From Thermoplasmatota archaeon (GTDB taxonomy: Archaea > Thermoplasmatota > Penumbrarchaeia > Penumbrarchaeales > Penumbrarchaeaceae): a stretch of DNA of 35,945 bases. The translations under genes were made by a program, and so were the position numbers. The notes below the pieces were generated by a model that saw nothing but the letters and a program-made list of their open reading frames with translations, ran no database searches and was not told the DNA's origin. Positions 13 to 127 of the stretch are shown in pieces. The DNA is taken from the NCBI GenBank assembly GCA_016928095.1, contig JAFGLL010000012.1, positions 1 to 35,945 on the forward strand, written 5' to 3'. Position 1 is the first letter of the stretch, and the number at the start of each line of letters is the position of its first letter.

Positions 13-127
13 TGGCGGGTCCGAGGGGATTCGAACCCCTGGCCATCTGGTTAAAAGCCAGACGCTCTTTCTAGGGAAGAAGGCGGAAAGTACCACCTAG
101 CATCCTACCTAGCTGAGCTACGGACCC
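13..127 (-). tRNA. tRNA-Lys(UUU) with an insertion/intron in the D-arm
   Basis: Read on the minus strand, the acceptor arms GGGTCCG and CGGACCC pair perfectly and are followed by discriminator G and an encoded CCA (13-15). The T-arm is AGGGG-TTCGAAT-CCCCT. The anticodon arm is TCTGG-CTTTTAA-CCAGA, so the anticodon is UUU (Lys). The D-stem GCTC/GAGC is present, but 47 bases lie between its arms where about 9 are expected. The surplus, about 38 bases (roughly forward 69-106), fits an intron after about position 20-22. The D-loop AGCTAGGTA with G18G19 is intact before it. The insert can fold through GGTGG/CCGCC and CTAGG/CCTAG. I could not draw a canonical bulge-helix-bulge, so exact splice sites are uncertain. 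Identity is firm; the intron is inferred. Confidence 0.93.

Follow-up and report, generated by a model that had tools for sequence, protein, structure and literature searches.

The tRNA-Lys(UUU) gene is interrupted in the D-arm

On the minus strand at positions 13–127 of the window (the whole 35,945-nt stretch of Thermoplasmatota DNA analysed here) lies a tRNA-Lys(UUU) gene in which the D-stem halves GCTC and GAGC are separated by 47 nt instead of 9, raising the question of whether the additional nucleotides stay in the tRNA, mark a defective gene or are spliced out. In minus-strand order the gene reads GGGTCCG-TA-GCTC-(47 nt)-GAGC-G-TCTGG-CTTTTAA-CCAGA-TGGCC-AGGGG-TTCGAAT-CCCCT-CGGACCC-G-CCA, its exons and stems are intact, and its body spans 16–127 (13–127 counting CCA). 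The insert is very probably a real, spliced and long-kept intron rather than an artefact, and we are highly confident in the prediction of a pre-tRNA-Lys(UUU) with a 38-nt intron of the bulge-helix-bulge (BHB) family at position 20/21, cut by EndA and joined by RtcB. The features of the locus are:

107–127, minus strand: 5' exon, tRNA positions 1–20 (GGGTCCGTAGCTCAGCTAGGT); D-arm identical in intronless relatives
69–106, minus strand: predicted intron, 38 nt, at 20/21 (AGGATGCTAGGTGGTACTTTCCGCCTTCTTCCCTAGAA); same-site introns across class and phylum
16–68, minus strand: 3' exon, tRNA positions 21–73; anticodon TTT at 53–55
13–15, minus strand: CCA 3' of the discriminator base; some relatives have CTA instead
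109–112, minus strand: BHB central helix, exon strand CUAG (positions 16–18); covaries with 71–74
71–74, minus strand: BHB central helix, intron strand CUAG; covaries with 109–112
106–108, minus strand: 5' bulge GU/A, predicted cut 107/106; GUA or GUU in 52 of 55 unique relatives
68–70, minus strand: 3' bulge AA/A facing unpaired A14-G15, predicted cut 69/68; AAA or ANA in 51 of 55 unique relatives
103–105, minus strand: inner helix h', 5' strand GGA; pairs with 75–77, inner helix covaries
75–77, minus strand: inner helix h', 3' strand UCC; pairs with 103–105
81–98, minus strand: intron terminal hairpin AGGUGG-UACUUU-CCGCCU, 6 bp; seen in the predicted fold

The CCA at 13–15, which is not conserved in all relatives, is perhaps fortuitous. 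The insert does not occupy the canonical 37/38 position, lying at 20/21, and its 38 nt compare with a core of about 200 nt or more for a group I intron; the Rfam match was to tRNA alone. That match, to the Rfam tRNA model, was only partial (24–73, 29.6 bits), and ARAGORN reported no tRNA in the window. After removal of the 38 nt (69–106), ARAGORN found a complete 77-nt tRNA-Lys(ttt); in the same mode it found nothing in the unspliced gene sequence. With introns allowed, it proposed a tRNA-Ala(agc) with a 28-nt intron in this gene sequence, which we rejected as a false call. A D-loop intron thus explains how a tRNA-Lys(UUU) gene can escape detection, missed by ARAGORN and only partly matched by the Rfam model. 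An earlier note on this DNA had described a tRNA-Lys(UUU) with an insert of about 38 bases in the D-arm (47 bases where about 9 are expected), and this description is confirmed by the complete tRNA obtained on excision and by the shared site in relatives.

No further tRNA-Lys(UUU), and hence none of the second intact copies whose possibility the earlier note had raised, was found in the source genome (2.8 Mb, 96% complete), where tRNA-Lys(CUU) is encoded by a separate, uninterrupted gene. Since AAA makes up 150 of the 493 lysine codons in the main genes of the window, tRNA-Lys(UUU) is needed. Two other tRNA genes of this genome (G000), for tRNA-Met (L029:1501–1617) and tRNA-Tyr (L035:201–310), seem to carry an interruption as well, which would lie close to the canonical 37/38 position. 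A search of the whole genome with the tRNA model did not find tRNA-Trp, Val(UAC), Ser(GCU), Ser(GGA) or Thr(GGU), which may reflect assembly gaps or more disrupted tRNA genes.

The insert carries a covarying, partly relaxed splice motif

In BHB geometry the 3' end of the intron pairs with the 5' exon, and the precursor contains such an arrangement, GCUC-AG-(CUAG)-GU/A-(GGA...UCC)-(CUAG)-AA/A-GAGC, in which a 4-bp central helix (4 of 4 pairs) is flanked by 3-nt bulges and an inner helix (GGA/UCC) adjoins the 5' bulge; taking out exactly this intron leaves a normal tRNA. At the 5' site the bulge is clean and 3 nt long. Because A14-G15 are unpaired, the 3' side forms a 3x2 internal loop with AG opposite AAA, and the outer helix (the D-stem) is not stacked directly on the central helix as a strict hBHBh' motif demands. 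With an internal loop on one side and a clean bulge on the other, the motif is of the relaxed HBh' or BHL-like kind and departs from strict hBHBh' in the outer helix alone. The D-arm intron with a relaxed motif suggested earlier is therefore supported in substance, with only the outer helix non-standard, whereas the accompanying statement that no standard BHB is present was too strong, as the central helix and 3-nt bulges are there and covary. The motif had been overlooked because the wrong strands were paired: insert AUGC with exon GCGU, giving a 6-base bulge, in place of CUAG/CUAG with bulges GUA and AAA, which covaries throughout the phylum.

Two points count against BHB splicing. The lowest-energy fold predicted for the precursor (−51.6 kcal/mol) contains the central helix with one extra pair and has the inner pairing displaced (AGGA/UCUU); the BHB fold is about 3–4.6 kcal/mol weaker. 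Moreover, an internal loop takes the place of a strict bulge on the outer side, and some reviews limit α'2 enzymes to canonical BHB motifs; with this outer-helix defect the precursor is not a textbook substrate for an α'2 enzyme.

Covariation was assessed in phylum sequences picked by the flanking exon pattern alone (55 unique). The central helix formed 211 of 220 pairs, against a mean of 175 with shuffled intron strands (0 of 5000 shuffles as high), and sliding the central pairing by 1–3 bases left at most 98; for the inner helix, 255 of 275 pairs formed where 187 were expected. The central-helix types include CUAG/CUAG, GUAG/CUAC, AUAG/CUAU, CCAG/CUGG, CUGG/CCAG, CCCG/CGGG and CUCG/CGAG. A separate count on 49 distinct trimmed rows, with the middle of the intron omitted, gave 95.9% pairing, 87 double-change cells (23.5 in shuffles) and a covariation of 0.406 (0.138 in shuffles), with no slid version close; the inner helix was paired in 93% of cells in relatives. 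Nine of the phylum rows have a mismatched first central pair. Kinship inflates these tests somewhat, but the changes are spread over many families and the slid controls retain the kinship. Conservation of A14-G15 is not independent evidence, because the search pattern itself required these two bases.

Covariation also bears on the possibility, named in the earlier note, that the insert is retained in the mature tRNA as a stable D-arm extension. Such an extension would agree with a predicted fold that preserves the tRNA arms and displays the insert as a long stem, and would have to be reconciled with covariation that follows splice-motif geometry with fixed 3-nt bulges, with an insert that ranges from 17 to 147 nt and is unconserved in sequence outside the motif, and with its precise absence from most of the phylum (cleanly so in 279 relatives). 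We therefore regard retention as very unlikely.

The predicted intron recurs across Thermoplasmatota

Wherever tRNA-Lys(UUU) was found in the class, it had an insert at the identical site, as in 5 of 5 intron-carrying relatives of the family and 3 of 3 others of the order or class found by pattern; no tRNA-Lys(UUU) was seen in the remaining two genomes of the class, which are 79% and 69% complete. In G009, also of this class, the intron at this site is 147 nt long and has an 8-bp inner helix (L212:1343–1489). This intron is long enough to house another RNA, and a check for nested RNA returned no Rfam family match. Among 390 sampled Thermoplasmatota genomes, the gene carried the short insert in 59 and was uninterrupted in 279, no genome having both (by inspection of both tables); 60 in all carried the intron. 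The short insert occurred in 16 of 54 sampled families, besides the family of G009 with the long form. Although the insert pattern also accepted a CUU anticodon, all its matches in the phylum had UUU. In the uninterrupted copies listed, the D-arm equals the predicted spliced product, commonly TAGCTCAGCTAGGTAGAGC. Comparison with tRNA-Lys genes of related genomes, a check that the earlier note had proposed, revealed intronless relatives encoding the exact spliced sequence, and because the insert is also present in every class member with a findable tRNA-Lys(UUU), it is not due to chance.

These data leave hardly any room for a decayed pseudogene or an assembly error, which would account for general tRNA finders missing the gene or calling part of it: the insert recurs in independent assemblies of related species, the only tRNA-Lys(UUU) gene found in the genome has intact exons and stems, and recurrence under covariation refutes the idea.

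In a scan of named records, 89 of the 90 well-fitting matches listed (at least three of the four central pairs formed; counts are minimum values) bore the label Thermoplasmatota, 'Euryarchaeota' or similar and one was without lineage; Methanomassiliicoccus species and Candidatus Sysuiplasma were among them. The EndA tree, with its long branches and weak support, requires at least four changes of intron state, which makes any count of gains and losses provisional. Within family f54, G366 and G362 differ, one having the intron and the other not, and form a useful pair for dating gain or loss.

EndA and RtcB are the candidate splicing enzymes

The only EndA found in the source genome (L043:1267–2283) is a single chain of 338 aa with one N-terminal domain and two tRNA_int_endo domains, the second of which retains the Tyr, His and Lys triad positions; by this domain layout it is classed as a two-domain, fused α'2-like enzyme. 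An RtcB ligase is also encoded. Wherever an EndA was detected in an intron-bearing relative, it likewise holds both domains within a single open frame. In family f8 (G015, G047, G153, G185, G259, G271 and others) the EndA frames are 370–617 aa, many far beyond the usual two-domain length. The closest solved structure by sequence is 5x89, presumably the EndA of Methanopyrus kandleri. A title cited in PMC6379350 describes the M. kandleri enzyme as having constrained specificity.

The relaxed 3' side of the motif would suit a broad-specificity endonuclease, which the earlier note had suggested; enzymes of this kind are the (αβ)2 or ε2 type with a CSL/ASL-like loop. This proposal gained no support: judged by sequence alone, the lysine-bearing inserted loop near the active site is absent, with no insertion in the source EndA, relative to those of Thermoplasma and Methanocaldococcus, at the site that holds the loop in crenarchaeal and ARMAN enzymes, and none there in an alignment of 41 EndA (source plus 40 relatives). 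As the sole EndA found is a two-domain chain and every intron-bearing relative with a detected EndA shares its fused layout, we give cutting by a broad-specificity enzyme very little credence.

BHB-type splicing is favoured because excision restores a full tRNA whose D-arm is identical to that of intronless relatives, because the central and inner helices covary, and because genomes with the insert and with an intact copy (59 and 279) do not overlap and both EndA and RtcB are encoded. We infer that the gene would be transcribed as a pre-tRNA-Lys(UUU) with the 38-nt intron at 20/21, in which the D-loop CUAG (16–18) would pair with the CUAG near the intron 3' end and leave 3-nt bulges, GU/A at the 5' site and AA/A at the 3' site. 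As with other archaeal tRNA introns, EndA would cleave after the second base of each bulge, and RtcB would ligate GGU to AGAGC, giving the normal D-loop AGCUAGGUA. With moderate confidence we further propose that one non-canonical intron, already present in an ancestor, has persisted in Thermoplasmatota with repeated losses, and that its relaxed D-loop motif is a natural substrate of a fused α'2 EndA without CSL/ASL.

Relation to known archaeal tRNA introns

Other archaea are well known to have non-canonical tRNA introns, some of them in the D-arm (PMC6379350, PMC3293823, PMC8450103). The BHB, HBh' and hBH introns of Thermoproteota, Nitrososphaerota, Caldiarchaeum, Nanoarchaeum and ARMAN resemble the present one in their BHB-family motif, D-arm site, short length and excision by EndA, which is predicted here (PMC6379350, PMC3293823, PMC12397907); they differ in being served by (αβ)2 or ε2 enzymes, often in intron-rich genomes, whereas the Thermoplasmatota intron occupies one site in one isoacceptor and recurs across the phylum with a fused α'2-like EndA. 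Canonical euryarchaeal 37/38 introns share the 4-bp central helix, the 3-nt bulges and the enzyme family; here the position is 20/21, and two unpaired exon bases separate the D-stem from the central helix. The BHL-like motif, in which a 4-bp helix lies between a 3-nt bulge and an internal loop, matches this layout, with the clean bulge at the 5' site and the loop at the 3' site; the difference is that ours would be a natural substrate, conserved across the phylum, where the EndA is α'2-like. Woesearchaeota and Nanoarchaeia have D-loop introns in the same tRNA at a neighbouring position, but as their motif fits 19/20 (GCCU/AGGC), they are probably separate insertions. Among the matches listed, such 19/20 introns were seen in L075, L080, L090, L094, L096, L103, L106, L109 and L157, with GCCU, GCUU or GUCC pairing with AGGC, GGGC, GGGU, GAGC or GGAC.

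Our search of open-licence papers found no report of the Thermoplasmatota tRNA-Lys D-loop intron. By default tRNAscan-SE 2.0 looks for non-canonical introns, so databases may already list it. The kind of intron is thus already known, and what is unusual is the retention of a D-loop intron across a euryarchaeal lineage with enzymes that reviews call canonical-only. Euryarchaeota with α4 or α'2 enzymes are described as confined to single introns in the canonical position (PMC4090602), with Methanopyrus and Methanothermobacter as exceptions with multiple introns (PMC4033280), and these enzymes are classed as narrow, cutting canonical BHB only (PMC4033280, PMC6379350), whereas another source describes homodimeric enzymes as able to cut a BHL-like motif with a 3-nt bulge and an internal loop as well (PMC8707768). 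The conserved intron, if spliced, favours the latter view of homodimeric-enzyme specificity, and it supplies many predicted natural substrates with which to settle the dispute over α'2 specificity. If true, relaxed-motif cleavage by a fused α'2 EndA would overturn the rule that α'2 lineages have introns at 37/38 only.
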